Shown: positions 11,901-60,799 of the stretch, one piece after another
Position numbering within the stretch: position 1 is the stretch's first letter
Layout: the number at the start of each line of letters is the position of its first letter
Assembly (NCBI GenBank): GCA_934045905.1
Contig: OW203764.1
Span: 32,653,629 to 32,717,628 of the forward strand
Direction: 5' to 3'
Origin: Leuctra nigra
Lineage: Eukaryota > Arthropoda > Insecta > Plecoptera > Leuctridae
DNA: 64,000 nt
The notes under the pieces: model-generated
The model's input: only the letters and a program-made list of their open reading frames with translations
Told to the model about the DNA's origin: nothing
Database searches by the model: none
Program-made: the position numbers and the translations under genes

Positions 11901-14900
11901 ATCGTTTTTGAACGGGATCCCGTGATTGGTTCAAATTTATAAAAAATTATCTTTCGATTGGTTTGTTTGATCAATTTGAAATTTTGACAAGTCATTACCA
12001 CTAACATTTTACCCAATCATACAAAGTTTCAGCCAAATCCTCCCATTGGTTAAAATTTAAAACCATCTTTACTGTGATTTTTGAAATTTAAACTAGAACC
12101 GTTTGACCGATCAACTTAAAACTTTGCATGGTCATTGGGACCAACATTATCTGTGTTTTTGACAATTTTCAGACAAATCTGTGTTTAAATCCAAAATATA
12201 TTGACATTTTACGGACATTTTGCTTGTTGCTATGGATCACGGCAACATTGAAGCCTCAGTTCCAATGTTCCAAGGTAGTTAGAACAGAAACTTTCAAACG
12301 CATAATTATAACACTAACAATCAACAGATCGATCTGATATTGTGTAAACATACTTATATCATATGAGTGGTCCCAGGAGGCCAAGTCTTGAAACCTACGC
12401 TTTCAGGACGCAAACGCTCTAGGACGTCAACAAGTCCCATTTACTGTAAGAATGGCGACCTTGAAATCTACTGTCAACTGTTTAGCTATTCATTTTGAAT
12501 AAGGTTTTAACGTTTAATGACTGTATAACATCTGAAATAATAATTATAATGTTAATAAATTGTTTCCAATAGATTGCTGGATGACAATCAAATAAGTGAC
12601 TTAAATTAATGATTCAATGTCGATCACTCTTACAGTGAATGGGACTTTATGACGTCCGAGAGCGTTTGCGTCCTGAAAGCGTAAGTTTCAAGACTTGGCC
12701 TCCAGGTATAATTTTTGAACAAGATCCTGTGATTTTTGAAAATTAACAAGGAACCATTCAATCATAAAGGTTCAGGTTCAATCGATCAACTTAAAACTTT
12801 ACATGCTTATTGAGACCAATATTTTTGGAATTTTTGAAGATTTTCATACCAGTCTGTGACGAAATTAAAGAATTATTGGCTTTAAATGACATTTTCAATA
12901 TTCAGAATTTCGGTTCGATGTGTTGCGCATATCCGTGCTCGCTCATCAACGCGTTACACAGAGCGTGTTCCTAGTTAACATTTTACGGTCATTTTGCAAG
13001 TTGGCTGTCAAATTACTTGAGGGAAATTTAAAATATTTTATCAGTGCCTCTTCGACGCTTCAGTTCCAAGGTCTTTAGCAGAAACTTTCAAACGCATATG
13101 AATTCTCATGCAATATGAAGGCTCTAACTGAACATGTGACCGTTTAACAGATCGATCTGAAGTTTTGTATTCACTTCACACTATGTATCATATGAGTCAC
13201 GAGTGGTTCCAGGTAGGGTCAATCGGGGTAAGTGTGGCCACTTTTTTTTATAATTTCAGTTTTAAATCACTGCAGCAGCTCAAAGTTACACGCTAAAAAT
13301 GTGAAAAAAATCTTACAAGTTACATGCGTTACCAAATGATTCTGCAAACTTAAAAAATGCAGTATAACTACTGATGAGTGATGAGTAATGTAAATTCTAG
13401 AACATGTATTTTGCCGGCTACACTTTCCCTTGAAATTGGGGTAAGTGTGGCCGCTATGTGGGAAAGTGTGGCCTTTGGTAATTTTTCAATGTACCTTAAT
13501 TCATATTTTTTAATGAAGTGAATTGTGGTCATGTTTGAAATACCAATGACTAAATAAGAAAATGCATTTTTGCCCAAAAGTTGTAGTATAAATTTAGTTT
13601 TTCAGCAATAATCATATGTTGGGTTTTTATGAACTTTCAATTTAGGCACTCTGTGAGGCTTCAATCTGCCTAATGTAGGTAGGTAATAAATTACAGTTTG
13701 AATTTATGGATCCTTGCAATAGAGGGGACAACCCCATGCCTAAATTAATGCACCAATTATAAATTATAAAAAGTACAGTCATGTCTTCTCATGTCATGAA
13801 TCCTGGAATAGTCATGCATTGCAAGAATGCTGACTTAGTATGCATGTGGTAGGCTCGGGGTTCTAATCTCCATGAAAGAAATATATTTTTTTTTGTAGGA
13901 AATGTACTGTTTCTTTAAATAAAGTCTTCGGGCTTATTGTATTAAATACCCAGTTACAATATTGAACTGACTTTGATTGTACCACTGTGCGTACACTAGT
14001 GTCCGGGATTTAAATTTTTTGTAACATTACTGGGCACCTAGAATCTGAGCCAATGCTTCTGGATGAGGGGTTTCTCATTCTTTGGTTGATATTTAATTGG
14101 ATAATATGATCAGATAAAATAATGGTCCACATCAGTCATTGAAATCACACAAAATAGTGTGGCCACACTTTCCCATACTTTGTGGCCACACTTACCCCAG
14201 GTCTATTTTTTGAGGGGGGAAGTGTGGCCCCCAATTATTTCAGACTAATAATGAAAATTATTAAATAATTAATTGATAATATTGTTGATTACATGTATAA
14301 GCATCTATATTTAAGCAAGATAATTTATTTTTATGTTTTATTGCCTTCAGTCCACAGCCTTCTCGACAGTCACTTCGTTCTCTGGGTAGCTGCCTGCCGA
14401 CCGCCGATGCAAACTATGACGTCATCGGGTTCTTGCACGCTCGGGAGCGCTACTCCCGGCGGGGTGGCAATAAAATGTACTATTGGTTAGTTCATTTTAT
14501 TGCCACCCAGCCTGGAGTAGCGCTCCCGAGCGTGCAAGAACCCGATGACGTCATAGTTTGCATCGGCGGTCGGCAGGCAGCTACCCAGAGAACGAAGTGA
14601 CTGTCGAGAAGGCTGTGCTTCAGTCAAATTGGAAACATACGAAGTCGAAATAGTGTTTTTAATTTGAAAGAATGCTCCACAATATGAGATCTTAACTGTT
14701 CAAAATTTTTATAATTCATATTTTTTTTTAGTTCTATCAAGACTGTTTAACTATAACTATATAAGTATATATATAAGCGTTGGCGCTGATAACCTTGCTG
14801 TTGAGCGCCATAAACCATAATATCTATCTATATAAGCGTCTGTTCAACTATAGCTAAATATTCATCCTGCAATATTGCTCCATTATCATCTTGAATTCCT

Positions 14901-17900
14901 ATAATGTCATCATTACCGTATTACCGTATTACTAGAGATGCGAGTCGGAAAATTTTCCGGAAAATTTTTCTGGCTTATTTTTCCGGAAAAATTACTGTAT
15001 TGTTTTTTTTTGTATTCTGTAAAATAAATGTGGTGCAAATAATTTTCAACGGTTTGAAGGCCTTTGCTTGAATATTTACCTCAGCAGAAAAGTTACAAAC
15101 TGCATATTTCAAATATCCCGCCAATACTGAACAAAGGCAAGGCATTCACCAATGATAATAATGTTGTCTAAATGTTGAACATTAAAATAATCAATTGAAG
15201 GGCTGTACTGCAATACTGATCATATTATTGAAAGGTATGATAACATCAAAAACATAGTGGAAAGTGAAAATATCGTTTACCAAAACAATTGTAGGACCCA
15301 CAAAATTTTCTAGAAAATATTCCGATTTAAAATTTTCCGGAAAATTAACATCTCTACGTATTACTAGGTATTTTTTTGAATATATTTACTTGTTGTATTA
15401 GTAATTCCATTAGTATGAGCAGGTCACCTATGTATATTCCAATTATTATGAAATATTATTCTTATCTTAGGTCTCTATCTGTTGACTGGTAGTAACACAA
15501 TGTTTGTACTAATAATAATAAATATAACACATTAACAACCAAGCATCATGAACATGATGTATTTTTCAGTGTACTGTATTGTATTTAGGTTAGGTATGGA
15601 TTTTATTTTTAATAAAATATAATTTGCTATCTGGAAATATAAAAATATCTAGATCACCTAATATGCTCATGTGAATGATAGTAGTACCCTATACAATGTC
15701 TATGGTAGTACATAAAGAATATTTTACTAGGAAAACGCTCTGTGTAACGCGTTGATGAGCGAGCACGGACACGCGCAACACCTCGAACCGAAATTATGTC
15801 TATCAAAAATATCATTAAAAGCCAATAATTCTTGAAATTCGTCAGTCTTGTAGGTATAAAAATCTCCAAATATTCCTAAAGTATTAGTCCCAATAGCCAT
15901 GCAAAGTTTTAAGTTGATCGATTGAACCTTTATGATTAAAATGTTCCTTGTTAAAATTCAAAAATCATAGGATATATTAAGAAAAAATATACCTGGGACC
16001 ACTCATATGATAAAAGTGTGTGAACTTACACAATATTAGACGATCTGTTGAACGGTCATATCAGTTTCATACGTTTGAAAGTTTCTGCTCTAACTACCTT
16101 GGAACTATAAAAGTCGAAGAAGCCGTGATCAACATTTTCGAGAAATTTGACAGATAACATGCAAAATGTCAGTAAAATGTCAATAACTTTTGGATTTAAA
16201 CACAGATAAGTCTGAAAATTGTCAAAAATACAGATAATGTTGGTCCCAATGACCATGCAAAGTTTTAAGTTGATCGGTCGTATGGTTCTAGTTTAAATTT
16301 CAAAAATCATATGAAAGATTTTTTTAAATTTTAACCAATGGGAGGATTTGGCTGAAACTTTGTATGATTGGGTAAAATGTTAGTGGTAATGACTTGTCAA
16401 AATTTCAAATTGATAAAACAAACCAATCAAAAGATAATTTTTTTTAAATTTGAACCAATCACGGGATCCCGTTCAAAAACGATCCCAGGGACCGCATAGA
16501 GTACGTTAGTATGTGTACAAAATTTCAGATTGATTGCTTGAGCGGTTTGACCTGGGGTGTGACTACAAAAAAAAAAAAAAAAAAAAAACACACAGAGAAA
16601 GTGCCATAAGAGTACCGTGGTGACGCTCGCTATGCTCGCTCAATTATAATTAGGTAATTACGTGTTTTTTTTATAATTTTAAAAAATAATTGATATTTTT
16701 TATGAACTATGTATTGCAAAATATTATCAAGCACTTGACCTATTGCATGAACTGTGTCTCTTCCGGCTCTTCCACACAATTATTCAAGGTCTGTGGATGC
16801 GTAATATTTGGCATTGAATATGGCATTGATATTTCTTTGTTTTGAATTTCGTTCGTTATGAAAATTGATTTTCGTAACTTCCTTTATTATCTTCAATGGG
16901 TTATCAACTAATTGCAAAACTTAAAATAGACTACTACCTACCACATGCTATAGTCTAGATGTAAACACCAGTCTATTAATAGTATTTGTGTTACTCTTCC
17001 ACCCATTTATGGAAATTAATTGTAATTGTGTGTCTAGAAATATATTATATGGATGGAAAAGAATCTGAATAGAATAAATAAAATTGATGATAATTAAGGG
17101 AGCATTACTGCGATACTCTTATGCCACTTTCTCTGTTTCTTTTTGTTTGCTAATTTGTGTTCTTTCCTGCATTGCACTGGTCACACCAGCCAACATTTTG
17201 GACTAGCACTCTATGTCCTCCAGCAAACAATTAGATTAGAGACTTAATTGTTGTACGTATAATAGCCTTATAGGTACCGAGTATGTACAATTTTTTAGCA
17301 AAATTCTTGAGCCACGATTTGAGCAAGCTCAAATTCTAACAAGATGTTTTTGTAAACAGCATACCACACTATAATAGTACCAACTAGTATGTACCAAAAA
17401 GGAAGTAGACAATTCAATCTGGGCAATTGGCCCCATTGTTATGCCGAGCCTTCTCTTGGGTTGAGCTCGCTATGGGGTTCATAAAATACCGGTTTTTCAA
17501 GAAAATCCCAATCCACAGATCGGATGCGGTTCACTTTAGACCGTTTTTGCGTTTTCCGTTTTTTCTTACCGTCCAATCACAAATCCAGAAACCGCTCAAG
17601 GGATATTTGCGATTGGTTAGGTAATAGAAAAAACGCAAAAACGATCTATGTGGACCTGGCTAGAGTGTCACATGAAGGTGTTTTGTATCAACAATTTATC
17701 CGGTCTTGAACATTTTCAGTCGAATGGTAATTATTCTTATTTTGACAAACTTTTGAACTTTGTTTAATAGAAAGACTAAAGAGGCTCGCTTATCAATGCA
17801 AGTTATAATGATAATTTTTCTAACTATTTTCTGGTTCGAATTATTTCATGACTTAAAAGACTGCATACTTACAATGATACGAACGTCGTGAGAGGCCGTA

Positions 17901-19023
17901 CGACCGTGTACTGCAGTATCCCGTGCTTGCACATGTGAATCAGGTCCCTGTTCGTCGAGTTCTCCCATTCGCCGAGGCAGCAGAACGGGAAGAAGTGTCG
18001 CAGGGCTTGGTTGTCGTCCAGCGAGTCGTCCATGTCCGTCTCCGAGTTGAGATAGTTGAGAAGATACATCATGAAGTTGTAGATTACGTACGCCTCGTAG
18101 CATTCTCGTAAACTGTCCATGTAGATTGATTGATCGGGAAATACGAGTCCCAACCACTGGCAAAGATAAACAAGTGTTAGGTAAATCATCAATTCATATT
18201 TTAAATAGTCTTGCTTGAATCAGCAATTAACTTACCGCATTGACAGCGTATATGGGCACCATCCATAATACTCTGAAAATGAATAATACATTTAATTATA
18301 GCCTGTTGTTCACTTGTACTGTGTATTAATACTGCTCTCTTCCACTAGGTACCTATAGATGAAACGAATGGAAATAGTCCAGCAATACTTTGATCAACAG
18401 GTTTTCTTTCTGTTCCTACTTCAATCTTGCAATGACAAACTTTCTTGACAAACAGGCTTGAAGGTAATTTGATTTTCTTTCATGCCTGGCTTCATTCCAA
18501 GGTCATCTGGCTTGTCAAGAAAGATTGCTGCAAGTTTGATCGAGTATGGCTGCGCCAATTACATCGCCAATGTCAATTTGAATACGTCTTAACTCCGTCC
18601 TGTTATTACCTTGCATTGCATTACAATATTTTGTTGTTCTTAGAGACACAATTATCACAGCAAAGATTGTGTCATTGGCGAAGAGACGTTTGTGTACACA
18701 GGATTGTGCAATTAAGTGGCACAAAACACCAAATTAGTAAATACGCTTGAAGCAAGTGTCAACACTCACCTGATGATATGTTTCTGCAATCGGGGTTTTG
18801 TATAGTGAACCATGTGCTGAGTTATACCCCAAAATGAAATAGGCAATGCCATCATAACAAATACACCACCAATAAGAGCTATTTGATCCCTTTTGCTCAA
18901 GCCATTGTTGATAGCATTCGTAACAAGTATTGGTAGAATTACAATTATTATCAATCCATACACAGTCATAACGACTGGTCGAATCCAAAGCCTCCATCTA
19001 TATATCAAATTTAAGTTACACAT
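5751..19023 (-). CDS. TMEM184C: TMEM184C-like seven-helix membrane protein (six exons)
   Basis: The exons are 19023-18770, 18272-18236, 18156-17873, 8943-8737, 7192-6918 and 5971-5751. They sum to 1278 nt with every splice phase agreeing, giving 425 residues plus stop; human TMEM184C is about 440. Family landmarks run in order: WIRPVV and HMVHYTKPRLQKHIIR near the N-terminus, VLWMVPIYAVNAW, SLRECYEAYVIYNFM, HGILQYTVVRPLTTFV, FVAMYCLVFFYR, PKFLCIKAVVFFSF, LQDFLICIEMFLAAVVHHY, and AMWDVSDVQRDL. A polar Ser/Asp-rich cytosolic tail follows. The family is related to organic-solute transporter alpha and sits in endomembranes; its biochemical role is poorly known. The start at 19023 has A at -3 and places WIRP at residues 13-16, as in the human protein. 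A possible AG acceptor at 18998-18999 leaves an alternative with a further upstream exon. Intron 3 is 8.9 kb and full of transposons. Confidence 0.93.
6918..7192 (-). CDS. TMEM184C: TMEM184C exon 5
   Basis: The acceptor is TGTTCTCAG and the donor is TCAG|GTACGT. It encodes QGVLIAILVYTGVIG, the helix around CIEMFLAAVVHHY, and AMWDVSDVQRDLKEHLG. GC content is strongly raised compared with the flanking introns. Confidence 0.93.
7389..7957. mobile_element. PIF/Harbinger-like MITE in TMEM184C intron 5 side
   Basis: This 569-bp element lies between exons 5 and 4. It has about 40-bp near-perfect terminal inverted repeats beginning AGGCCCATGCACAATTGACA and is flanked by TAA on both sides (7386-7388, 7958-7960). 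A 3-bp TWA duplication and such termini fit the PIF/Harbinger superfamily. Subterminal regions are runs of degenerate GCGGGTTGCG units repeated inward from both ends. It encodes nothing. Confidence 0.75.
8003..8465. mobile_element. hAT-like MITE
   Basis: This 463-bp element begins CAGGTCAGGGACGG and ends CACCAGCCCTG. It is flanked by an 8-bp duplication, CAATCACT at 7995-8002 and CGATCACT at 8466-8473 (7 of 8 match). The CAGG...CCCTG ends and 8-bp duplication fit hAT elements. It sits in the intron between TMEM184C exons 5 and 4. Confidence 0.6.
8737..8943 (-). CDS. TMEM184C: TMEM184C exon 4
   Basis: The acceptor is TTGTCTTCAG and the donor is CTT|GTAAGT. It encodes VCELNGVYMEGEFR through KFLCIKAVVFFSF. 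It lies 8.9 kb downstream of exon 3, across the repeat-filled intron. Confidence 0.92.
9054..9200 (+). repeat. Family A repeat, 5' part only
   Basis: It starts TTGAGCGAGC and carries the family's CTTTCTCTGTGTGTTTG and 'cttaaccgttcaa' blocks. It breaks after CATATGAG, where a non-LTR 3' fragment begins. Confidence 0.65.
9203..10039 (+). mobile_element. 5'-truncated RTE-like non-LTR retrotransposon
   Basis: This is a 3'-terminal fragment of a non-LTR element. It covers the end of the reverse-transcriptase ORF and a short 3' UTR ending in ATT repeats (AGATTATTATT at 10031-10041) just before a family A copy. 5' truncation of this kind is the normal product of target-primed reverse transcription. 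It lies antisense inside TMEM184C intron 3. Confidence 0.7.
9233..9961 (+). pseudogene. Reverse transcriptase C-terminal fragment
   Basis: An open frame of 242 codons continues in frame upstream to about 9206. It matches the thumb and C-terminal region of RTE-like reverse transcriptases: MRISQEKSETLVM, FKYLGSWLTKDG, YFLPILTYGSVTWA, RERLRWFGHMKRM and RRVGRPREKW. The palm with the catalytic YADD is missing, so it cannot work as a polymerase. Such fragments are often mislabelled as craniofacial development protein-like host genes. The tail is very rich in Glu, Lys and Trp. Confidence 0.8.
10040..11150 (+). repeat. Family A repeat interrupted by a TTAA MITE
   Basis: It starts TTGAGCGAGCGTAGCGAGCG, passes a T-rich tract, and carries the usual internal blocks. 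The MITE at 10439-10967 is inserted at GATCAACTTAA; the repeat resumes with AAACTTCGCGTGGTCATTGG. It fades after the CCTGTAGAGCAG block and lacks the 3' terminus. Uninterrupted copies elsewhere confirm the insertion site. Confidence 0.8.
10439..10967 (+). mobile_element. TTAA-flanked MITE, copy 3 (full length)
   Basis: This 529-bp element lies between TTAA at 10435-10438 and 10968-10971. Ends are GGTGATACTAGCGCTCGGCC and, inverted, GGTGCTGCAAGCGCGAGCGA. The empty site is seen in other family A copies as GATCAACTTAAAACTTTG, proving insertion with a TTAA duplication. Sequence is very close to copy 2 at 564. Confidence 0.88.
11500..11596 (+). repeat. Family A repeat, 3' terminal fragment
   Basis: It contains GTGCTCGCTCATCAACGCG followed by GAGCGTTTTCCTAGT, the family's 3' end. 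A second partial copy (internal blocks only) follows at about 11620-11745. Confidence 0.65.
11749..12975 (+). repeat. Family A repeat, full length with nested MITE
   Basis: It runs from TTGAGCGAGCG to GTGTTCCTAGT. Within it the core GATCRAYYTRAAAYTTTG recurs about every 110-220 bp (near 11850, 11970, 12110, 12330). A 324-bp MITE interrupts it at 12378-12701. More family A sequence (12976-13215) follows. Confidence 0.8.
12378..12701. mobile_element. Long-arm inverted-repeat MITE with 5-bp duplication
   Basis: Arms of about 75-80 bp begin AGGCCAAGTCTTGAAAC at both ends. The flanks are CCAGG at 12373-12377 and 12702-12706. The uninterrupted family A sequence reads GTCCCAGGTATAA at this point, so CCAGG is a genuine 5-bp target duplication. 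The interior is short and AT-rich. Confidence 0.8.
13216..14240. mobile_element. Repeat with GGGGTAAGTGTGGCC inverted ends
   Basis: GGGGTAAGTGTGGCCAC occurs near the left edge (13224) and at 13439, and inverted as GTGGCCACACTTACCCC near 14190. Further GGGAAAGTGTGGCC variants lie at both ends. A tRNA-like B-box stretch (about 13850-13875) sits inside. It interrupts a family A fragment at GGTTCCAGGTA. Exact ends and target duplication were not resolved. Confidence 0.45.
14353..14617. mobile_element. Near-perfect 265-bp hairpin (foldback MITE)
   Basis: Two 125-bp arms (14353-14477, 14493-14617) are complementary with about two mismatches and are separated by a 15-nt loop. The arms begin CACAGCCTTCTCGAC. 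A perfect 8-bp duplication CTTCAGTC flanks it (14345-14352, 14618-14625), showing that it moved as a unit. The arms are GC-rich in an AT-rich intron and contain TGACGTCA. It lies in TMEM184C intron 3 and would be transcribed as a long RNA hairpin. Confidence 0.9.
14933..15356. mobile_element. hAT-like MITE
   Basis: This 424-bp element begins TAGAGATG and ends CATCTCTA, flanked by a perfect 8-bp duplication CGTATTAC (14925-14932, 15357-15364). Subterminal runs of GGAAAATTTTCCGG occur at both ends. Ends and duplication fit hAT. No coding capacity. Confidence 0.85.
15726..16643 (-). repeat. Family A repeat, full length, minus
   Basis: Both family ends are present: ACTAGGAAAACGCTC at the left and GCTCGCTCAA at the right. 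An A-rich tract at 16566-16588 is the complement of the T-rich tract of + copies. The family's internal blocks are in order. Confidence 0.85.
17097..17220 (+). repeat. Family A repeat, 5' fragment
   Basis: It carries the block ACTCTTATGCCACTTTCTCTG and the T-rich region, then diverges. A small inverted repeat (17537-17571 against 17618-17646, arms around CCGTTTTTGCGTTTT) lies between this and TMEM184C exon 3. Confidence 0.5.
17873..18156 (-). CDS. TMEM184C: TMEM184C exon 3
   Basis: The acceptor is TATCTTTGCCAG and the donor is TT|GTAAGT. It encodes WLGLVFPDQ through TTFVS, including the family signature RECYEAYVIYNF and the QYTVVRP block. Confidence 0.93.
18236..18272 (-). CDS. TMEM184C: TMEM184C exon 2 (37-bp micro-exon)
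   Basis: The acceptor is TTCATTTTCAG and the donor is GCG|GTAAGT. It encodes VLWMVPIYAVNA, one of the most conserved blocks of the family. It is too short for ORF scanning and was found by bridging exons 1 and 3. Confidence 0.92.
18770..19023 (-). CDS. TMEM184C: TMEM184C exon 1
   Basis: The start codon is at 19021-19023 and the donor is CAG|GTGAGT. It encodes the N-terminus and the first two membrane helices (VVMTVYGLIIIVILPIL and the GGVFVMMALPISFWGI segment). It leaves in phase 2. Confidence 0.88.
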
Positions 19024-34335: not shown

Positions 34336-36640
34336 GATATTTATTACAAACTTTTAGTAAAAATGATATATCTCACGATAATATTTAGTATGATGATAGT
34401 TAGATGACAAGGAATCTAACATTTTGATTATGAAAGACAGAAAATCAGCCCTACATCAGCCCTGGCAGGATTACAGCCCTTCAACCCTTCATGGGACATT
34501 TTCACTTCAAAGTTTAATTTTCATTAAGTTGACTAAACTTAATAATACGCGAATAAACATTTTTTTAATGCTGATTATATTGATATGCGATTTTGGCTCT
34601 AATTAAAGTAATCACATTCTAATATCTACAATGATTCTCCAGGGATTTTCTTCTACTTTGATATCTGAAAAATTTGTTGTTTTTTTGCCTCGCGAACATT
34701 TATAAAAAAAATCCTCTCTTCATAATTCAAACCCCATCAACTCAAAGTACAAAACGTCTTCCAGGTCACAATTAGACTGGAGTCAAACCGTCAGAAACAA
34801 TCCCATCTTTCAGTCAACACACAATCCACTTATAAATATTCAACTTAACAACATTCAATGAACAAGGCGTCAAGGCGTCGACTGCAGTGCGTGAGAACTC
34901 GACAAGATGCAATTACTGTAACCGAAGCTACAATCATTGTTACTGGATGCCACAATTACCGGTCCCCCTTCAATACTCCGTCAATAGGCCCAGCGACGCC
35001 CATTCCTGCGCTGCGAAAAACATTCATCGACATTCGCATTGACAAAGTCAAGAAAGGAAATTCGTTCTTTGAAATCTCTCCGTCGTCATTGTCGATCATC
35101 GACGCATTAATAAGGGACGCGCTAAGGGGGTTCTTCTCAAATGTAGGGTGTTTCTTTCAGGGCGGATAAATTCGATTGTTGCCTCGAGAAAATGTTGAAA
35201 TGTTTCATATTGTTAGGTACGGTGGTTTTTTGGCCGCAGGACATGAAATAATGAACGGTTTTCTTTTCCGAGGTGTTTCTCGAGGCATTGTCGCTGCGGT
35301 GCTTGGCACTCCGTGGGGCTGGGACTCGGTTGACCCTGTAATAGCGGCACAATGGCGTAATACATGGAGCAATGCAGTGGATTCGGGTAATATTTTGATT
35401 TTTACTCGCTTTGACATCGCCAGATAATGGAATCGACGACGGAATCTTTTAACATAATATAGTATTTAGGGTCAATAATTCTATTCATCGATTTATGAGT
35501 TGAAATGTTCTACTGATGTTGGAGAGAGGAACACGTGAATGTGCTGCTCGAGAAGTCAAAGTCCTTGGCGTTGAAGAGAGTCACACTTCTAAGTACACAT
35601 TGTAGCTTGTGGAGTGTTTTGGTTGATCGGGTTTCAAGTGCGAAGGCCCGTGTCGCAACTTGGCGCTGGGGTTGTTTCGGCAGCTTGCGAGCAAACAGTA
35701 GGCCTGACTTGTTACATTACATACCTACTAATACAATTGGTGTTCAACGTCGCACTGTTCTGTTCTGTAATTAACTAGTCTAGCGACGAAAGTCTAGCGA
35801 GTAAGGATGGAAGGTGAGGCGGAAGTGAACACCTTCCCATCATTTACCTCTCGACTGAGGTAAACTACGAGATAAACTCACTCAGTCATGAAATACCCCC
35901 GAGACCTCCAGAGAGCAATTGGTACTACCTGAGCCAACTTGTCGTTAAAATATCACATTTGTAACATTATAAAAATAAAGCAAAATGTAAACACGTCATT
36001 ATGGCGAGCCGGTTTTACTTTCACCTAACCGTATATTATAACGTAAATGTAAATGAAATTAGTATACCTATAGCATTTGTACCTATCGCACTTCCGTGTT
36101 AGCGAAAACCCGGCAAATTACGATTATTATACCATAATTATACCAATGTTTTTCTGTTCCATTGATTTGTTTTGTTCCGATAACCATTTTTGACCGATAC
36201 ATCTTGATTTGATGATTACAATGCCTCTTATCTCATTTTGAATTTTTTTGGAATAGTTGTATTTTGTTCCTAAGCTCCTCCTTGCCTGAAAATAATATTG
36301 GAAACGTTTTAATTATATAAATACGAGTTCCTAAAACGTTTTGCTCCTTGCCGCGTGCATGCGTGTGCGAGTGTCTATGAATGCGTGCGAGACGACGAGG
36401 CGTCATCACGTCTACTGGAGGAAGAGCAGCACATTGCGTGTTCCATATTTCACACCTCATCGGCATCAGAACCGCGCTTCTTCCGACCCGCTGGCGAGCT
36501 TTAGGCGGCGGTGCGTCAAGCTTTCCGCTCGCCTGGCCACGCCGCTTTGACGGAGATCCGGTAAACCAGATGATAATCCATACGCGAATATCGACACAAT
36601 ATCTCTCTGCCGCATGATGAAGCGGAATCAACCCACCGGC
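34336..36640. other. Mostly non-coding, with a SINE fragment
   Basis: A minus-strand SINE fragment lies at 35720-35880. ORFs at 34858-35169 and 35176-35427 have no domain, splice or homologue support. Nothing else is recognised. Confidence 0.35.
35720..35880 (-). repeat. tRNA-derived SINE fragment, minus
   Basis: It shares CAACGTCGCACTGTTCTG, GGATGGAAGGTG and ACCTTCCCA...TCGACTGAGG blocks with the full SINE at 59471-59747, in the same orientation. The tRNA head is missing. Confidence 0.6.
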
Positions 36641-36938
36641 AAGATGCAGCCTCTTCATTAGCGGTGTGACGCGTTGATGAGCGAGCACGCGCAATGCAAG
36701 ATGCAGCCTCTTCATTAGGAACACGCGCGGGGTGACGCGTTGATGAGCGAGCACTCGCAATGCAAGATGCAGCCTCTTCATTAGCGGTGTGACGCGTTGA
36801 TGAGCGAGCACGCGCAATGCAAGATGCAGCCTCTTCATTAGCGGTGTGACGCGTTGATGAGCGAGCACGCGCAATGCAAGATGCAGCCTCTTCATTAGCG
36901 GTGTGACGCGTTGATGAGCGAGCACGCGCAATGCAAGA
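36641..36938. repeat. 57-bp minisatellite derived from a family A terminus
   Basis: Five units start at 36641, 36698, 36764, 36821 and 36878. The spacing is 57 bp except for one 66-bp unit with a 9-bp insertion. Each holds GACGCGTTGATGAGCGAGCA, the inverted 3' end of family A, joined to AAGATGCAGCCTCTTCATTA. Because 57 is a multiple of three, two minus-strand frames stay open across the array; these ORFs are a repeat artefact. Confidence 0.92.
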
Positions 36939-38742
36939 CCACAACATCTTTCAGATTATCCATCAGTAACTTTATATAGGTAAATAATATTTAGGTGAAG
37001 AGATCTCAATGGGGAGATGACTGGATAGTAATGAGTAGGGATACGATGTTTAGGACATATCCTTTTTTAATTTTTTGTTCAGACGTCTAAAAATGATACA
37101 TAAATATGTTTCATAAGTTCCTGATTTCAAAAATAAGTGTTTTACCTTGCCTGAAAATGACTTTTTCTAATTTTTTTTTATTAATTCAGTCATTTTCTTG
37201 CTATTTAAAAGTCTTTTTGTCCTTTTTTAAAATTATTGGGGAAAATAATATCAAATATTTGTTGCAAGTTACAAATAAAATTGTTGTCTTCAATAAATTC
37301 CATCCTTCACTTGGATGACCAACAACGATACTTGACACATTGACACATTCATAATATAATAATATAATACTCCAAATTCAACTCATAAACCATGAATAAA
37401 TCTAATAATATGTTGACGAATATTACAAAGCATAACATTTCATTGGTACTTTTTAGGGATTTTATGGTACTTTTTAAATAGTTTTAATGTATTATTTGCC
37501 TGCCTCTTTGGACGGTTCATCGGTCCTAAACATCCTAGCCCTATAGTAATGAGTGTTTGGTGACATACAATGGTCCAATGTGCCATTTTTAATACAATTT
37601 GTCTGTTCATTGGATTTTCCTTCCAATATAGGCCTTAATTTAAAATAAAGTAAACACAAATATTGAAATTTGGCCAAAGGGGGTTAATTTTATTTTACAT
37701 GTTTTAGTTGAGATTTCCTCTGGTAATATGCTAAAATTGATCTTTGAAAACCTGTTGAAAATAAACTTTTGATAACATCAAATGACAGCTGCGACTTGTG
37801 TGTGGTTTGTCAACCTACTTTTCATAGTGTTTTAGGCAAGACACTTATTATCTTCGCAATTCGTTTACAGTTCTTTTATTTTTACTCAAGTGAAAGTCAA
37901 ATAACATTGAAATCGGTTCATGAATAGCATCAAAATAACGAACTTCAGCAAGAGTCTGATCTCTTAATACACCGCTGTGACGTCAGATGAAAGCACCCTA
38001 TAATGAAAGAGCAATTGATCCTTTTATAGGATCAAAACGCAACGATTCCAAAATGTTTTGAATTTTGATTTTGAGATGAAGGTGGCATTGTATGCTTCGA
38101 AACAACTATTTAAAAAATGTATGTAACTAAAACACAAATTATTTTCACTTGAGCCATCCAGCTAAAGCTGATCATCGTTTTGCATGAGCTTAGACAAATG
38201 AACAATATCATTTGTAAAAATGGGTCTGAAATTGTGTCATCGCTCATTTAGGTACTGTGTTGCATGCTGTAAGAATGCAAAACATATTAACATAATATTC
38301 TAAAATCAAATAACATTTCCACTACTTTGGATCAAAACGCATACTATTGCAATTCCCTCTTTTTCACTTTAAGTTATTTTAAAGTTACTTTTCAACACGT
38401 CTGATATAAATGCAAAATAAAATTATTATTTAGCAAACTATAGAATACATATCTTTTTCACTAAGTAGACCTACTACTAAAACTCATAACCGGGCTTTCG
38501 CGATTATCTCGGAATAAAGAATCGCAATAAAATCAATTTACTCTAAGGTTGACAAGGAACTGAATGCAGCTATCGCCCAAGCCAAGCTACAATTTAGCAG
38601 ACCTGAATATTAATATTTTAAATTTAGTATAGGTATTTTGTGATTTTGTAATTCATCATAAAGTGTACCAAATGATAAGCCTCCCTAGAGCCGTAATGTT
38701 ATATTTTCTCTCTACAATGAATGGATTTTAGTTGCATTTGGA
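36939..38742. other. AT-rich non-coding DNA
   Basis: No gene, transposon end or RNA gene is recognised. Confidence 0.35.
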
Positions 38743-50703: not shown

Positions 50704-51287
50704 TTGAGCGAGCGTAGCGAGCGGCACTTCGTTACTCTTATATAGCACTTTCTCTGTGCGTTTGATTTTTTGTTTTTTTTGTGTTCAGTGCCCAGATCAA
50801 ACCGTTCAACCTATCGATCTGAAATTTTGCACACATACCAATTGTACTCTATGCGGTCTCTGGGATTGTTTTTGAACAGATTCCTTGTGATTGGTTGATA
50901 AAAGAAAATTACACCGTTCGACGAATCAATTCGAAATATTTCACAGTCTTTGAGGCCGTCTTATATTATTAGGATTACATTACATTTGTACACAATGTAT
51001 TAAATACATTTATTATGTGATTTTTTTTAAATTAAACTAGAACCGTTTGGCCGATCAACTTAAAACTTTGTGGGCATTGGGTCCAACATTTTAGGTATTT
51101 TTGCCAATTTTCAGACTAATCTGTCGTTACCTTCAAAGGTTATTGACATTTTAAAGACATTTCATCTATTATAAATGTATGCCAAGAACATACATTTATA
51201 ATACATTTAAACTTGCAAACGCATATCAAATTGCATGCAATATGAAGGTTCGCTCATCAACGCGTTACATACAGAGCGTTTTCTAGT
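50704..51287 (+). repeat. Family A repeat, plus
   Basis: It runs from TTGAGCGAGCGTAGCGAGCG to GAGCGTTTTCTAGT and contains most internal blocks. It is internally deleted relative to the 900-bp copies. It faces the copy at 51456. Confidence 0.85.
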
Positions 51288-52910: not shown

Positions 52911-54079
52911 TGTCTCGTGGCACCTCCACCTATAACATTCTATTACAAATGATTAATTACATTAATTATAAATTGACTGTAAACATCACTTGATATATTT
53001 TATAAACTTAATTCAACAACCCTTAAGGGTCCACTTGCAATTCACGCATCCATTTCATCTGTTTCATCGCAATGCCTGTATAAGTGAACATAAAATAACA
53101 CTTAAAGAATCCACCCCCTCCCAATCATTCAGTTCGCTTCTTCTTGTGGTACAGTAAAAAGTATCGGCATCGCTCTGTCTCCGTCACTCCAGCATCTTGG
53201 ACGTAAGTCTGTCTCCGTCTAACACGTCTTCTCTCGCACCGTTAGCGTCTACTCGTCGAGGCTAATCGAATCTCAGCGCGTGGTTAATTGACTCAGAATC
53301 CACTGAGCAGATCTGAACTAAAACATACCTTATTGCAGGCTGAGGGACGTATACTCCCAGCAGGATAAGGGCTGCACAAGTGTATTATTCTACAATTATC
53401 TTATTTTTCATTTATTTTCATTAGACTCTTTGAGGTTCATACTTATCTAAAAATAAAATTATTTTTGCGTTAATCGTAATTTTTTATTTTTTTTTATATA
53501 AAATAGTATGCAAACTTATTTATAGATATTTTAAACGCATTAATATAGTGCTGTAAAATTGTCAACAATTTATTAATTCATTTGATCTGTAGATCAATAT
53601 TGCGATACAGTCATCTAGACCGCTAAAGTCTACTTACGGCTAAAGTGAGATTTATGTTAGGTACTTATCGGGACATTGTACAACCGGGTCTATAACTCAA
53701 AGTTTTTAACAACATTATATTTGATAATTTATAGATAGGTAAATAATTTTATAATAAGAGTTAGTTTCAAGTCCAGAATGTGTTCAGAAATTAAATTATT
53801 AATTTTTAAGGAATTTGTATCAATATTTCCTACAAACCAAGAACTTATTTTGAAACTCATAGTTACAAACCATGATGCAATAATATACTAGCTAGACGTA
53901 GAGATACTTATACCATGGTTACAAACCACTAATACCGCTGGTAGTGTTAAGTTCATTCCATTTCATTTTTCCAAACATGGACAATCTAATGTATAGTTAT
54001 TCCCCTGTGTACCCTCAATTATGTGTCAATAATGTGTCTCTCAATTACTAAAAGTAAAATCATACTCCATTATTATTAG
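52911..54079. other. Non-coding DNA
   Basis: A GTAAGT donor-like site at 53200 and a TTGCAG at 53334 are present, but no open exon connects them. Nothing else is supported. Confidence 0.3.
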
Positions 54080-54227
54080 ACGAGCGTAGCAAGAGTTTTT
54101 TTTCCTGCACTATCCAGGTAAACCGCACAACCAATCGATCTAAATTTTGAAATCATATAATCTAAGCGGTCTCTGGGATCGTTTTTAAACGGGATCCTGT
54201 GATTGGTTCAAATTAAAAAAATCTTTC
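54080..54227 (+). repeat. Family A repeat, left part (split by retrotransposon)
   Basis: It carries CGAGCGTAGC and the block GCGGTCTCTGGGATCG, ending at AAAAATCTTTC. The matching continuation resumes at 58241. Uninterrupted copies read ATCTTTCGATTGG here. Confidence 0.8.
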
Positions 54228-54254
54228 TGTATTCAGTATTCAGTATTTTTTATT
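54228..54254 (-). repeat. 3' tail of the non-LTR element
   Basis: On the minus strand AATAAA is followed closely by ATACTGAATACTGAATAC, that is, tandem ATACTGA units, ending at the junction with family A sequence (54227/54228). Confidence 0.8.
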
Positions 54255-54360
54255 GTCATTTGTGAATTACATTGTAATTATAAAAGACAGTCATTGATAA
54301 ACATTGTTCATTATAAAACTTATTAAACTACATCCACAACACTATTTAATACACAGCATA

Positions 54361-57252
54361 TTAATTGCTCTCACTTTTGACATGTTTAGTTATAGCCAAC
54401 TTAAACTCGTGAACATCTTTGCTATCTTTGATTACTCTAGGGATTTTGTTAAAATCCCTAAACCCTTTATAAAATATACTGTTATTTAACCTACTGTAGT
54501 TACAATGCGTAAGAAAAGCATCATCTGCATGACGAGTCATGTGTTCATGCAGAGATTTGTCAATGATAAAATACTTTGGCATATACCCTTTATAAATTTT
54601 AAAAACAAATATATACACAGCTATGTCTATCATTTCTCTGATAGTACACCATTTAAGTTTTTCTCTCATGCCACTCGTTGGGGTCATCCTCCTTTCTCTA
54701 AGAATACATCGCATTACTTTGTTCTGCATGATCTGCAACCTATTAATATCTTCTTGTGTGTTATTATAAAACAAAGTATTGCAGTATGTAAAATGCGGTT
54801 TTATAATACAGTTATATATCATAACTTTAGTCCATGTTGATAGATTACCTCCAACTCTATACATATATCCGATTTTCTTTCCTAATTTACTTATAACATC
54901 TTGAATATGTTTCTTAAAACATAGTCTATTGTCAATTAAAACCCCCAAATATTTATAAAATTCCACACACTCAATATTAATTCCACTTATAGTTACATTA
55001 TCATGCGGCTGAGTGTTTTTCATTACATTTTTTCTACCAATTACCATCATTTTTGATTTACTTTCGTTGAGTTTAAGTTTATTTACATGAAGCCAATTTA
55101 CTACGTTTATAAGTTCATGGTTTATTGTACATATGGCTTCATTTACATTTTCAGAAGCTACAGAAATCACCATGTCATCCGCATACAAATTTAAAAAACA
55201 TTTTTCAACAACACTCGGAATATCATTAATATACATAATAAAAAGTAATGGTCCCAATGTAGAGCCTTGTGGAACACCATGAATACACAATTTCTTCTCG
55301 GACAAACACTTCCCATATTTGACCTTTTGGTACCTTCCAACTAAATAGCTTTGTAGCCACTTGAGAACAGTTCCTTCTATACCATATTTATACCTGATTT
55401 TGTAGAGTAATCTATCCAAATTAACGGTCTCAAACGCTCTTTTAAGATCCAGAAAAACTGCTACCGTAACTTTATTATCATCTACATCTTTCATCCATTT
55501 AGCTAGGAGACCCTGAACTGCTGTCTCACATGAGTGTTTCTCTCGGAATCCAGATTGATTAATGTACAAAAGTTTATTTACATCCAGGTACTCGCTTAAT
55601 TGACTGTGTACCACACTCTCAAGTATTTTATCCATGATTGCCAACATGTTTATAGGTCTAAATTCACACATTTGAATCGTATTTTTCACCTTAGGAATAG
55701 GAATGATGGTAGATTCCTTTAAATCAGTAGGAAAACAGCCCTGCGATAATGACATATTTATAAAATCAAGAACAAAGTATTTGGACACTTTATGGGAATC
55801 CATGAAAAGTTTATACGGTATACCATCTACATCACCCTTTATGCTTTTCAAACTTTTCATTTCATGTTCTAGAGTCACAAGAGATATACTTTTAAAAGAT
55901 TCAAAAGTATTTACATTTTCTTCCTCTACTGTATAATGATCCAAATTTGGAATACTTTCAACTATCTTAGTGATACTGTCAAGAAAATAATTGTTAAAAG
56001 CATTAGCAATATCCTTTTCCTCCGTCAACAAGATATCTTCATTATTTACAATTTCATTCTGAATATCACATTTCATTTCTGTATTACAAATTCCTTTAAG
56101 TGTACGCCATAACTTATTACTATCCCCTTTAACATCATCAATTTTTCTTTCATAGTAATTTCTTTGAGCAGACTTGAGACTTCTGGTAACCACATTTCTA
56201 CTCTTTTTATACTGTATCCAGTCATCATGATTACCCGACACTTTAGCCCTCTTATACAATAAGTTTCTGCTAGATATATTTTCTTTAATTTCCCTACCTA
56301 GCCACGGAATATTCTTTCTATTTTTTCTTGTTACTTCAACTTTTTTTAAACACTCATTCCTAGACTCTAATATGTTTGTCTTCCACACCTTGTACTTGGA
56401 ATCCAAATCCAAATCATTATAACTCCAATCTCTCGTATAAAGGTCATTCCTAAAAGCATCACTATTGTAATTATTCCAGTCATCGACCCATCTTGTCACA
56501 TCCTTGGCTTCCTTTTTATTTATCTGAGCGTTTCTAATAGTGACACCAATCACCTCGTGATCAGATATACTAACATTAGGCATGATATCTGCAGTTACCA
56601 GTGCACCATAATTTGTAATTACAATATCGATGAGAGTTTTTGTGTCTTTCGTCACTCTAGTAGGGACCTTTATAATCTGTTTGTGACCATATTCAGCAAG
56701 TAGCTCTTTCAGTCTCTTAACATACCCAACATTTACCAACCAATTAAAGTTTAGATCCCCTATCATAATAAATATACCTTTAACTTTCTTAACATCTTCA
56801 AAAATCTTCTCAATAAAATTAACTGCTTCTTTTTTCTTAGCATTAGGAGATATGTACCCTGTGTATATAACACATGTGGATCCTCTTATACAGACCTGCA
56901 CCCCAATAAACCAGTATCCTAATTTCTTTTCACTTATGTTAACAATGACATTTGCACTGATGTTATTTTTAACATACATAATAACTCCCCCCGTAAATCT
57001 CGAATGAGAATTACATCTGATCATTCTATAACCAGGTATGTCAATTTCTTTGTCATATATCTTATCATTTACATGAGTTTCCCCAATGCCTATTAAAATC
57101 GGATTTATTTTCTTAATGTAAGTTAGAATATCATAATAGTTCTTTGTTAAACTTTGAGCATTTAAATGTATGATATCTGTATCTGCATGCTCTGAATTAT
57201 CTATTAATGTAATAGCTTCTATACTACTGCTCGGCAAGCCATCCTTTAGTTG
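54361..57252 (-). CDS. ORF2: endonuclease/reverse transcriptase
   Basis: This copies element RNA into the target site. The open frame runs from just after the ORF1 UAG (57253-57255) to TAA at 54361. Counting from Leu/TTG at 57237 it has 958 residues. The apurinic-type endonuclease spans about 20-235: HLNAQSL (Asn 26), IGETH (Glu 53), IGDLNFNW (161-166), LIDIVITN (204), SISDHEV (Asp/His 226-227). The reverse transcriptase spans about 500-760: FLDLKRAF (Asp 597), HGVPQGSTLGPLLF (653-666), LYADDMV (catalytic YADD 685-688), FYKYLGVLID. There is no RNase H. The first in-frame AUG codes for residue 72, beyond Asn 26 and Glu 53, so an AUG-started protein would lack the endonuclease core. Expression as an ORF1-ORF2 readthrough fusion is inferred. 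No stop or frameshift interrupts it. Confidence 0.93.
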   Translation of the reverse strand, partial: QLKDGLPSSSIEAITLIDNSEHADTDIIHLNAQSLTKNYYDILTYIKKINPILIGIGETHVNDKIYDKEIDIPGYRMIRCNSHSRFTGGVIMYVKNNISANVIVNISEKKLGYWFIGVQVCIRGSTCVIYTGYISPNAKKKEAVNFIEKIFEDVKKVKGIFIMIGDLNFNWLVNVGYVKRLKELLAEYGHKQIIKVPTRVTKDTKTLIDIVITNYGALVTADIMPNVSISDHEVIGVTIRNAQINKKEAKDVTRWVDDWNNYNSDAFRNDLYTRDWSYNDLDLDSKYKVWKTNILESRNECLKKVEVTRKNRKNIPWLGREIKENISSRNLLYKRAKVSGNHDDWIQYKKSRNVVTRSLKSAQRNYYERKIDDVKGDSNKLWRTLKGICNTEMKCDIQNEIVNNEDILLTEEKDIANAFNNYFLDSITKIVESIPNLDHYTVEEENVNTFESFKSISLVTLEHEMKSLKSIKGDVDGIPYKLFMDSHKVSKYFVLDFINMSLSQGCFPTDLKESTIIPIPKVKNTIQMCEFRPINMLAIMDKILESVVHSQLSEYLDVNKLLYINQSGFREKHSCETAVQGLLAKWMKDVDDNKVTVAVFLDLKRAFETVNLDRLLYKIRYKYGIEGTVLKWLQSYLVGRYQKVKYGKCLSEKKLCIHGVPQGSTLGPLLFIMYINDIPSVVEKCFLNLYADDMVISVASENVNEAICTINHELINVVNWLHVNKLKLNESKSKMMVIGRKNVMKNTQPHDNVTISGINIECVEFYKYLGVLIDNRLCFKKHIQDVISKLGKKIGYMYRVGGNLSTWTKVMIYNCIIKPHFTYCNTLFYNNTQEDINRLQIMQNKVMRCILRERRMTPTSGMREKLKWCTIREMIDIAVYIFVFKIYKGYMPKYFIIDKSLHEHMTRHADDAFLTHCNYSRLNNSIFYKGFRDFNKIPRVIKDSKDVHEFKLAITKHVKSESN

Positions 57253-57255
57253 CTA
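57247..57255 (-). promoter_or_regulatory. UAG CAA CUA stop-codon readthrough context
   Basis: ORF1 ends ATG TAG and continues CAA CTA AAG GAT GGC in the same frame into ORF2. TAG followed by CARYYA is the established readthrough context of tobamovirus type. The nearest AUG (57240-57242) is out of frame and opens only seven codons. Function is inferred from sequence. Confidence 0.6.
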
Positions 57256-58167
57256 CATTTTTTGTTTGGACAGGTCATTTTTTATTTTTACGTAATAAGA
57301 GCAGTTAAGGTCACTGGCTTCATGCACCGTGCTAATATCTAGCTTGCATCTACCTTTATATCTAATACAATTTATACAGTTCATGATTTCCTCTTCGCAG
57401 ACACGAATGTTATGCGGTCCTGCGCAAAACTCGCACACCATTTCACCTCGACACTCTCTAGCGATGTGTCCATAACGTTGGCACTGAAAACAGCGCTTAA
57501 TACGCACATATTTGGGAGCTACTGCACTACTCACTTCATTTTGCACTTTACCGACGTTTTTCCACTTATCACGCTGCATTTGTTGATAGTTATTTATCTG
57601 TTGCCCATGTGAATGAGCGTCATCGTTGCTATGGTGCTGATGCGGCTCGAATTCAGGAATTTCGCCGTCATTCGTGATGACCTCCTCGCCTGTTGTTGGT
57701 TTTCTTCTCCGGTGATCTCGCTGAGGCGATGCGCTGGTATTTCTGCCGCCAAGGACAATGCGTTCCTTGTTGACATCGCCGACATCGGGATTGCGATGAA
57801 CGGGTATAACTCCCGCCAAGGTCAATTCGTGCTCCACTGTAGTCGAGATTTCTTCTTTTAGCTTCAACTCTAATTGATCTATTTTATCTCGTTGCAGTTG
57901 AGTAATATATTCTAGATCGGATATTCTTTTTCTTAACAGATTGTTTTCTCTTATTAAGAAATCCACATCACTCTGAGGCATTTGCTCAGACAGAGGCAAA
58001 TTACGTACTATAACACTATTGTCCTCGGTAAAACTTAAGTCAATACTTTTTAAATCGTCGAATATTTCGATAATTTCACGAACACTTTTATTTTTGTCCT
58101 CATTGTCAACAACGGTACCATCCAAACTTGGCACAGTTTTCCTAGATCTCGTAACAACATTCGTCAT
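57253..58167 (-). CDS. ORF1: gag-like zinc-knuckle protein
   Basis: This 304-residue RNA-binding protein of the retrotransposon is expected to coat element RNA and form the RNP. The start is placed at the ATG 58165-58167 (G at -3). The frame is open up to a TGA at 58237-58239 without another ATG. A leucine-rich coiled coil lies at about 67-106 (FLIRENNLLRKRISDLEY region), followed by a His-rich hydrophilic linker. Three Cys/His clusters follow: CFQCQRYGHIAREC at 226-239, CEFCAGPHNIRVC at 245-257, and a stretched third cluster starting CINC at 264-289. This layout matches ORF1 of Jockey/CR1-like elements. It ends in UAG and is followed in frame by ORF2. Confidence 0.9.
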   Translation of the reverse strand: MTNVVTRSRKTVPSLDGTVVDNEDKNKSVREIIEIFDDLKSIDLSFTEDNSVIVRNLPLSEQMPQSDVDFLIRENNLLRKRISDLEYITQLQRDKIDQLELKLKEEISTTVEHELTLAGVIPVHRNPDVGDVNKERIVLGGRNTSASPQRDHRRRKPTTGEEVITNDGEIPEFEPHQHHSNDDAHSHGQQINNYQQMQRDKWKNVGKVQNEVSSAVAPKYVRIKRCFQCQRYGHIARECRGEMVCEFCAGPHNIRVCEEEIMNCINCIRYKGRCKLDISTVHEASDLNCSYYVKIKNDLSKQKM

Positions 58168-58240
58168 TACCACTACTGAAAGGAACTTGTTTCGCGGAGC
58201 TATCAAACACGACCTGCCTCGACCACTGCCAATCAATCAT

Positions 58241-58625
58241 TTTGGTAGTCCGATCAATTTGAAAATTTGCAAATTCATTGCAACCTACATTGTCCCCAAT
58301 CTTACAACGTTTCAACCATTTCATCCTATTGGTTAAAATTTAAAACCAACTCTCTTGTGATTTTTTAAATTTCAACTAGAACCGTTTGACTGATCAACCT
58401 TTGCATGGTCATTGGGGCCAACATTTTAGGTATTTTTGCCAATATTCTGACTAATCTGTCGTTACCTTCAAAAGATATTGTCACTTTGAAGACATTTAGT
58501 TCTATAATCTTGAAATATGTGCACATTAATGTCAATAATATTAATTTCAATTATTATATAAGTGCTATCTTGATGCTTCAGGTCCAAGTCCTGTAGAGCA
58601 GTGACTTGCAAACGCGTATCAAATC
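58241..58625 (+). repeat. Family A repeat, right part
   Basis: It resumes TTGGTAGTCCGATCAATTTG and continues through GTTTGACTGATCAACC and CCTGTAGAGCAG to about 58625, where the copy fades without its 3' terminus. Confidence 0.8.
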
Positions 58626-59470
58626 GCATATACAATGTGATTTTATTAATAAACTAGAGCCAACAGAGAGGGTCTGGATTGGTCTTCGATATTGTTGATC
58701 CTGTTAATAAACTCCACTGATGAGGAGTTACTGAGTGTCAGTTGTCGAAGCAAAATACTTGACATGTGTTGAAACCAGGTTTCCTCTGATCTTCGGTTTC
58801 TCCGTGGAATATTATTTTAAGCAAAGTATTAAATTCAGTCAGGTATCAAATTCGACACCAAACTTGGACATCTAATATAAAATATGCTACGTATAGCAGC
58901 TGCGAAGACCACCTTCGATCAAACCTGAACAAATGGTTGAAAAACTTGACATTTCACTGCGAGTTGTTCTTCATCACTGACTCCTGAAGACTTGAGGCTT
59001 TGAAGCCTGAGGCTCCTGAGGCAATTACAAAGAAAATTGTTTAAATTTTCTTTGCTTGTAGTACAAATTTAGCTAGTCGAACTATCAAGTTTAGCTAGTT
59101 TTTAGCTAGTTTAGTTGATAAATCAAAATTGTACAATTACTAATGTATGTGTAGGTACCTTTAAACTTCACATTTAGTACAAATATTTTTCTATCGAGGT
59201 TGTATATCTCTACCCCAATGGTAGGAGGGAGGCAGTTCATTTCAATGATTCTTGAGGTGAGATCAACAGACAGTAGGCTGCCCTCATCATATTCTGTAAT
59301 AGTGACACCTTAGACTAGTGACACCAATCATTTTGAAAGAGAATACTTCAACATTAACTGTAAGTAATTTTTTACTTCAGTAAAATTGTCGTTCAGAATA
59401 AAAAAATCGAGAAAAAGGAATTGGAGCATTTTATTTCTGAGGTATACAGATTATACACGTAAGAAACGAT
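58626..59470. other. Non-coding DNA
   Basis: No gene, RNA gene or transposon end is recognised. Confidence 0.35.
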
Positions 59471-59747
59471 TTTTTGTCTGGGGCTTAACGTCGCACTGTT
59501 CTGCAGCGAGGTTAATGGCGACGGATGAATGATGATGATGATTGGGAGATGATGGTGAAGAGTAGGTAAAGATGGAAGGTGGGAAGGAGGCGGTCGTGGC
59601 CTATTAGTAGGGTACCTTCCCAGCATTTGCCTGTCGACTGAGGGAATACCACGAAAAAAAAACAGTCAGGAAGGACGACCGCGGGAATCGAACTCGGGCC
59701 TCCGGAATACAAGTTCAGAGCGTTACCACTCAGCCAACCTGTTCCGT
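59471..59747 (-). repeat. tRNA-derived SINE, full length, minus
   Basis: This 277-bp SINE has pol III A box TGGCTGAGTGG (59726-59736) and B box AGTTCGATTCCC (59683-59694) at tRNA spacing, a body containing CAGTCGACAGGCAAATGCTG, and a 3' tail ending CAAAAA. A 13-bp duplication CGTAAGAAAYGAT flanks it (59458-59470, 59748-59760; one difference). It is the reference for the other three copies in this window. Confidence 0.92.
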
Positions 59748-60440
59748 CGTAAGAAATGATAATATCTATGAAATAGTACAATATTTATCGTTAAAAATCA
59801 ATTTTTTGCTGTTGACTAAAACCGATTATTTAGATATGTTCATTGGGTTTTGTTGATACGAATGGAACATTTGAACGGATGGAGAAATTGTCTTTTTCTG
59901 AAAACAAACACTTATTGAACCAAGTTTTATTGATTTGTAGGGATGAGGGGGGGGGGGGGGGGGGGAGTTTTAGTGATTTTAATTTAACTTTATTGTTCTG
60001 GCATCTTTCAACTTCCTAGCTGAAACTCTTCTTTTCGACTAGTAAAGTTGGTATTCCTGGCGCAAGTATAACACGCTCTGAACGTAAAGTTTCCTCGCAA
60101 CGGAGCGCAATGGGCTGGAACGAATCGTCGTGTAAGTTTTCCAATTCAAATTACGTGATGATTACTCCGGCGGTATTTCATACGTATTGGAAACTTATAT
60201 TTGACATTAGATTTACTCCACTGCATTCAATATTGAGTGCTATTACTCATTTTATAAAGTATGCGGTTTTACATTCGATTTGAAGGAAAGTATGGAATTG
60301 TAAAGAATGGTGCAAAAGCAAGCCACAAAAACAATTCTGTTTAAATAATCTACATACCTTGAGAGTATAATCATGGTATATCTGATTTATTGTCAATATT
60401 TTCATCTAGAAGGCACCGACCATTGTTGAAAGATAGCATG
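59748..60440. other. Non-coding DNA with a poly(G) run
   Basis: An uninterrupted G run of about 20 nt occurs near 59947-59966. Nothing else is supported. Confidence 0.4.
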
Positions 60441-60799
60441 GTTGTTGCCATGGCAATATAGTCCTAATTGACTGTTTAAAAGTTAGCAAGGCATTGAAAG
60501 ACCGGTCCTAAAAGTTGAACATAACTATTTTTTATGGATATTATTGTGAAATGTACTAAACGAATTACTAAACTTACGTTTACGATAAAGATCATGTTCG
60601 GTATCATGCCCTAAGGGCCGCTCTTTCAATGCCTTGCTAACTTTTAAACAGTCAATTAGGATATTACCATTAACCATTATTAGGATATTTATTAACTATA
60701 TATTGCCATGGCAACAACCATTCAATACATTCCTAAATGACCACTAACTAACTGTTAAAAGCTTATTGAGACTTTAGCAGAGTATTGAAAGACCGGGCC
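60440..60799. repeat. Inverted-repeat family around GTTTAAAAGTTAGCAAGGCA
   Basis: GACTGTTTAAAAGTTAGCAA with TTGAAAGACCGG (60471-60515) is found inverted at 60614-60665, and each is linked to TTGCCATGGCAAC (near 60446 and 60710). Related blocks occur near 30290, 41020 and 48230. The last part is cut by the TTAA MITE at 60804. Confidence 0.6.

Follow-up and report, generated by a model that had tools for sequence, protein, structure and literature searches.

How LINEs produce their ORF2 protein is an old open question, for which reinitiation and frameshifting are the usual answers. A LINE in the stretch of 64,000 nucleotides analysed here (the window) raises this question anew. An initial annotation had proposed that its ORF1 and ORF2 are expressed as a fusion through a UAG in a viral-type readthrough context. 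The LINE anatomy, the in-frame UAG, the type I motif and the lack of a usable AUG were all borne out by our analysis, whereas readthrough itself is only the simplest route by which this sequence could give a complete ORF2 protein, albeit a probable one.

The element, read from the window sequence, lies on the minus strand and extends over approximately 4.0 kb (about 54228-58241), both ends being read by eye. Self-comparison of the window revealed that it is inserted into a dispersed repeat, to which the sequence on either side (54096-54227 and about 58242-58497) belongs and whose further copies are situated at positions 10128-10434, 11809-12220, 16555-16164, 22718-22309, 51016-51162, 52061-51824 and 52893-52564, with pieces of at least 60 nt showing about 73-85% identity to the flanks. 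All four of the aligned copies (the first four of this series) are continuous and lack the LINE, and the ends of the element could be placed at about 54228 and 58241 because the repeat is unbroken at these empty sites. The 5' end is precise to a few bases (58236-58242), and the 3' end was placed at the tail. No clear target-site duplication was readable in the alignment with the empty-site copies. Long terminal repeats were likewise not found, the longest direct repeat in the region 53900-60600 being 38 nt long and internal to the element. This imperfect duplication (79%) lies inside ORF1, at 57726-57763 and 57793-57830, in the stretch that separates the coiled-coil-like part from the knuckles described below.

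In the 5' to 3' direction, all on the minus strand, the element comprises a 5' UTR of about 74 nt (58168-58241), ORF1, in which 304 codons, counted from the first Met, precede a TAG (57253-58167; 58236-57253 if measured stop to stop), ORF2 with 963 codons plus a TAA (54361-57252; terminal TAA at 54363-54361), and a 3' UTR of 133 nt (54228-54360) containing AATAAA and a terminal TACTGAATACTGAATAC tail. The 5' UTR carries the sequence GGTCGTG at 58214-58208, about position +28, which we take to resemble the downstream promoter element that jockey-type LINEs of Drosophila carry, a likeness consistent with a complete 5' end. An out-of-frame ATG at the 5' edge (58240-58238) is relevant only if the 5' end truly falls at 58241, and it would open 32 codons if located inside the transcript. 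A second copy of ORF1 or ORF2 was not found in the 64-kb window at E 1e-3.

Outside the element, two pieces of the endonuclease-coding DNA of ORF2 (56535-56552), a 15-mer and a 13-mer, recur exactly and adjacently at 59297-59330, about 1 kb upstream of the LINE. A SINE-like repeat is present at 59536-59747 and 42846-42650 (87% identity), with partial matches at 21182-21065 and 35831-35885; it shows a tRNA-like stretch by eye, and ARAGORN found no tRNA. The window also contains exon-like frames of an Ostalpha/TMEM184-like gene on the minus strand (17869-18219 and 6865-7233; Pfam PF03619), which, together with impressions by eye, suggest an intron-bearing eukaryote and probably an animal as host, although the family also occurs outside animals. 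On the plus strand, a 271-codon frame ending in TAA (2160-2975) matches Exo_endo_phos (E 3.2e-7), followed by hydrophobic stretches, and appears sphingomyelinase-like by eye, and on the minus strand a 240-codon frame (36233-36955) is made up of repeats of one short unit (LALRVLAHQRVTP...MKRLH) and is open in two frames.

The protein encoded by ORF1 exhibits a leucine-rich, coiled-coil-like stretch, the coiled coil being judged by eye, and three CCHC-type knuckles located by pattern match at residues 249-262, 268-280 and 287-312 of the stop-to-stop frame, with a Pfam zf-CCHC match (E 2.3e-4). A Pfam search gave no RRM match in ORF1. ORF2 encodes an AP-endonuclease (about residues 24-240) and a reverse transcriptase (Pfam match at residues 523-762), and no Pfam match to RNase H was obtained in the LINE. 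In the predicted structure, the model matches the L1 endonuclease from residue 24 onward, with strands at residues 27-31 and 53-57; modelling thus places the start of the endonuclease fold at about residue 24, and the preceding linker of residues 1-23 (57184-57252), where pLDDT is below 50, is probably disordered. The conserved endonuclease residues Asn31 and Glu58 were assigned in an alignment of ten rows, namely the window ORF2 and 9 of its 29 relatives. A reverse transcriptase, an N-terminal AP-endonuclease fold bearing its catalytic residues, the lack of long terminal repeats and a discrete insertion mark the element as an APE-type LINE, of full or nearly full length.

The junction between the two ORFs is gapless. 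ORF1 ends with AAA CAA AAA ATG followed by TAG (57255-57253), and the next codons, CAA CTA AAG GAT GGC, lead in the same frame into ORF2. This agrees, with zero bases in between, with the initial annotation, which had given no strand and had counted 958 codons for ORF2 and no in-frame AUG before residue 72; both figures correspond to ours (963 codons and residue 77) if counting starts after the five codons just named. From the ORF1 Met (58167) through the last sense codon of ORF2, the frame spans 1,268 codons with the junction TAG as its single internal stop, as against 106 and 174 stops in the other two frames across the same span, and this TAG falls inside a 39-codon inter-domain linker. Since no further stop occurs in the 1,268 codons, the copy is apparently young.

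Ordinary initiation at an AUG offers no evident access to ORF2. Nine AUGs are found from 40 nt before the TAG to Met77. Of these, eight lie in other frames and none of them opens more than 15 codons, while the remaining one is the last codon of ORF1, immediately before the TAG, so that no AUG in this interval opens ORF2. The first in-frame AUG past the TAG encodes residue 77 (57022-57024), and in the structure model two endonuclease strands, the first of the fold, lie upstream of it together with Asn31 and Glu58, in line with the earlier claim that this AUG lies past the endonuclease Asn and Glu. Translation of ORF2 could in principle start there, at the first AUG available, yielding a crippled endonuclease in an element that uses pre-existing DNA ends. 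However, the endonuclease core with Asn31 and Glu58 would then be kept for nothing, and scanning ribosomes would hardly reach residue 77 past the 20 AUGs that ORF1 contains downstream of its own start; we regard this explanation as highly improbable. These 20 AUGs also make leaky scanning to ORF2 unlikely. As read from the sequence, ordinary AUG initiation near the junction would therefore yield no complete ORF2 enzyme, and the explanations that remain are readthrough, initiation at a non-AUG codon, editing and a defective copy.

The context of the junction stop is that of a known class of leaky stop codons. Type I readthrough sites are defined by the hexamer that follows the stop, with the consensus UAG-CAR-YYA (PMC3542737). 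The candidate readthrough codon, TAG at 57253-57255, is followed by CAACTA (57247-57252), and the resulting TAG-CAA-CTA (57255-57247) fits this consensus, as had been claimed, with the downstream ORF in frame. CARYYA follows 14 of the 7,721 stop trinucleotides of the window in all frames of both strands, and only one of its 1,552 TAGs, which is the junction TAG; its probability is 0.2% under a first-order Markov model of the element, and chance alone would produce the 9-mer 0.45 times in the window, all these chance figures describing a site that was picked from a long scan and being uncorrected for that choice. By itself, the motif is weak; what is unusual is its placement at the junction, in frame and with no AUG.

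The bases upstream of the stop are less favourable, as the UAG is preceded by UG (from the codon AUG) and not by AA. An AA directly upstream of a type I stop is common, though not obligatory. In yeast, AA before the stop is reported to stimulate readthrough, and to be common at viral sites (PMC3542737). In mammalian cells, CARYYA placed after UGA in the OPRL1 context gave about 15% readthrough, and UAG behaved very similarly (PMC4132726), indicating that the motif is not restricted to plants. The hexamer mutated in that work was CAAUUA, all six bases of which appeared important; CAACUA is within the consensus but differs from this assayed hexamer. No RNA structure stood out 3' of the stop, with z values of -0.41 and +1.18 relative to shuffled sequences, six further stretches ranging from -1.02 to +1.20, and an Rfam search returned a single sub-threshold match, located upstream of the LINE (E 0.64).

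Alternatively, the UAG might be edited before translation (A-to-I, giving UIG) or be a sense codon in the host code, in which case the fusion would be edited or constitutive. Editing of a UAG to a Trp codon is a known parallel (PMC3542737), yet no hairpin stood out around the junction site. Moreover, UAG is used just once in 1,268 codons, compared with 21 CAA and 16 CAG codons, and a host code with UAG as sense is consequently unlikely. We therefore give editing or a sense UAG very little weight.

A separate ORF2 protein could also arise if ribosomes reinitiated after termination, or initiated internally, at some non-AUG codon of the linker. This would be a modified form of the reinitiation-like coupling that has been reported for SART1 and put forward for L1 (PMC5972666, PMC2881922). 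Five near-cognate codons within the first 26 codons of ORF2 are compatible with it. SART1, however, relies on an overlapping UAAUG, whereas ORF2 of this LINE is opened by no AUG close to the stop, and both the in-frame contiguity of the two ORFs and the CARYYA hexamer would have to be coincidental. Such initiation is, in our judgement, improbable, although less so than a start at residue 77 or an edited UAG.

The relatives of the element bear on whether the TAG is a private feature of this copy. Protein searches were made with ORF2 and with a two-sequence profile built from ORF2 and the best relative, P0001; in both, scoring was confined to the 7,991 candidates with the most words in common, and both retrieved the same 29 proteins, 11 of which were viewed individually. 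P0001 shows 34% identity over 97% of ORF2, the highest among the 7,991 scored candidates. ORF1, in contrast to this, gave no match among 1,077 candidates at E values up to 10. No relatives of ORF2 were found in viral contigs, and the two-sequence profile produced 278 pattern matches in viral contigs and 143 in genome contigs, none of them a relative; a ten-sequence profile gave 46 pattern matches with one partial reverse transcriptase match (locus L001, residues 637-703), and P0001 used as query gave no match. A tblastn search of plasmids gave 178 records, and the named features among the best 20 of these 178 were group II intron reverse transcriptases. Overall, neither close relatives nor further copies of the LINE were found in the viral, genome-contig, plasmid or protein collections searched.

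LINE copies commonly decay, and the family to which this one belongs might normally have an ORF2 AUG or a stop-free fused ORF, from which the present copy, now non-autonomous or dead, would have lost the start or gained the TAG. A single copy was examined, and the listed sequence of P0001, its closest relative, starts with MIWYINAQSL, in which a Met immediately precedes the endonuclease core (IWYINAQSL); this would fit an ORF2 start of its own in the P0001 lineage, the listed start being the source's own prediction. Furthermore, several distant relatives are single frames in which an upstream region is joined to the endonuclease, and in 8 of the 29 (P0003, P0008, P0009, P0010, P0011, P0012, P0015 and P0017) a GDI...PGP motif, which we take to be 2A-like, lies in the same frame as the endonuclease and reverse transcriptase, starting at residues 91-672. 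In these distant relatives, the 2A-like motif is another way to join or split two products. We considered a single-ORF family as the ancestral state, and the relatives with a 2A-like motif keep the explanation by a private defect alive. Against it, no other stop occurs in the 1,268 codons, and a random nonsense change would have about a 3% chance of landing in the 39-codon linker and about a 0.2% chance of being followed by CARYYA. Although it deserves more weight than any of the other alternatives, a private defect is an unlikely explanation.

Programmed readthrough of the UAG is, for the single copy examined, probably the best explanation of this arrangement. The contiguous in-frame ORFs, the single stop located in a 39-codon linker, the CARYYA hexamer at the junction and the lack of a usable AUG all support it, while the single copy, the UG before the UAG, the lack of an evident 3' structure and the listing of P0001 with its own Met count against it. 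One mRNA would then give rise to two products. Most ribosomes would stop at the UAG and release the ORF1 protein, a putative gag-like RNA-binding partner, and a minority would decode UAG-CAA-CUA as sense, generating an ORF1-ORF2 fusion with endonuclease and reverse transcriptase. By analogy with some retroviral Gag-Pol proteins and with tobamovirus replicase readthrough, leakage at the UAG would set a fixed excess of ORF1 protein. We infer, rather than observe, that readthrough occurs, as well as its frequency and its conservation in the LINE family.

In its broader form, our proposal is that a LINE lineage, probably from an animal, has given up initiation at ORF2 in favour of programmed UAG readthrough at a tobamovirus-type CARYYA, producing a fixed-ratio, Gag-Pol-like fusion in a non-LTR element, and we judge this to be as probable as its opposite. 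If true, the element would represent a clean natural case of a LINE with a leaky stop of the plant-virus type, that is, a type I readthrough motif employed by a chromosomal element, and six bases would largely fix the ratio of ORF1 to ORF2 products, which a simple reporter could measure.

In ciliates such as Paramecium, UGA is the sole stop codon, so a UAG context would have no bearing on the Group 3 non-LTR retrotransposons of Paramecium tetraurelia. For these elements, translational read-through has been suggested from consensus sequences (PMC5405496, 2017), and this is the only proposal of readthrough between LINE ORFs that we found in the open literature, most subscription papers lying outside the search. 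As in the present LINE, ORF1 and an APE-RT ORF2 share one frame with the ORF1 stop between them, but the Group 3 elements are ciliate elements of a separate RT clade, and the accessible text of PMC5405496 makes no mention of CARYYA. A LINE with a CARYYA-type site was likewise not found described in the open literature searched.

Among LINEs, the element resembles the Jockey superfamily (Jockey, L2 and CR1 lineages) in its APE-RT ORF2 with no RNase H Pfam match and in the three CCHC knuckles of ORF1, as described for type I ORF1s (PMC4120745); type I ORF1s, however, carry an RRM upstream of the knuckles, whereas no Pfam RRM was detected in the ORF1 studied here. SART1 and L1 are also LINEs in which ORF1 precedes an ORF2 for endonuclease and RT, but the overlapping UAAUG stop-start of SART1 and the 63-nt spacer with an ORF2 AUG of L1 (PMC5972666, PMC2881922) are both absent from this LINE.

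Beyond LINEs, MuLV Gag-Pol similarly links a gag-like protein and an RT-bearing product by an in-frame UAG, yet it belongs to LTR biology and needs a 3' pseudoknot (PMC3542737), whereas no 3' structure is evident in the LINE. Tobamovirus and other type I sites share the same UAG, followed by a hexamer within the same consensus, and in tobamoviruses the extension completes the replicase; they differ in belonging to plant RNA viruses and in having adenosines before the UAG, where the LINE has UG (PMC3542737). Readthrough is proven in tobamoviruses, whereas in the LINE it is predicted from the sequence. Both the stop context and the LINE belong to known types; what is unusual is their combination.
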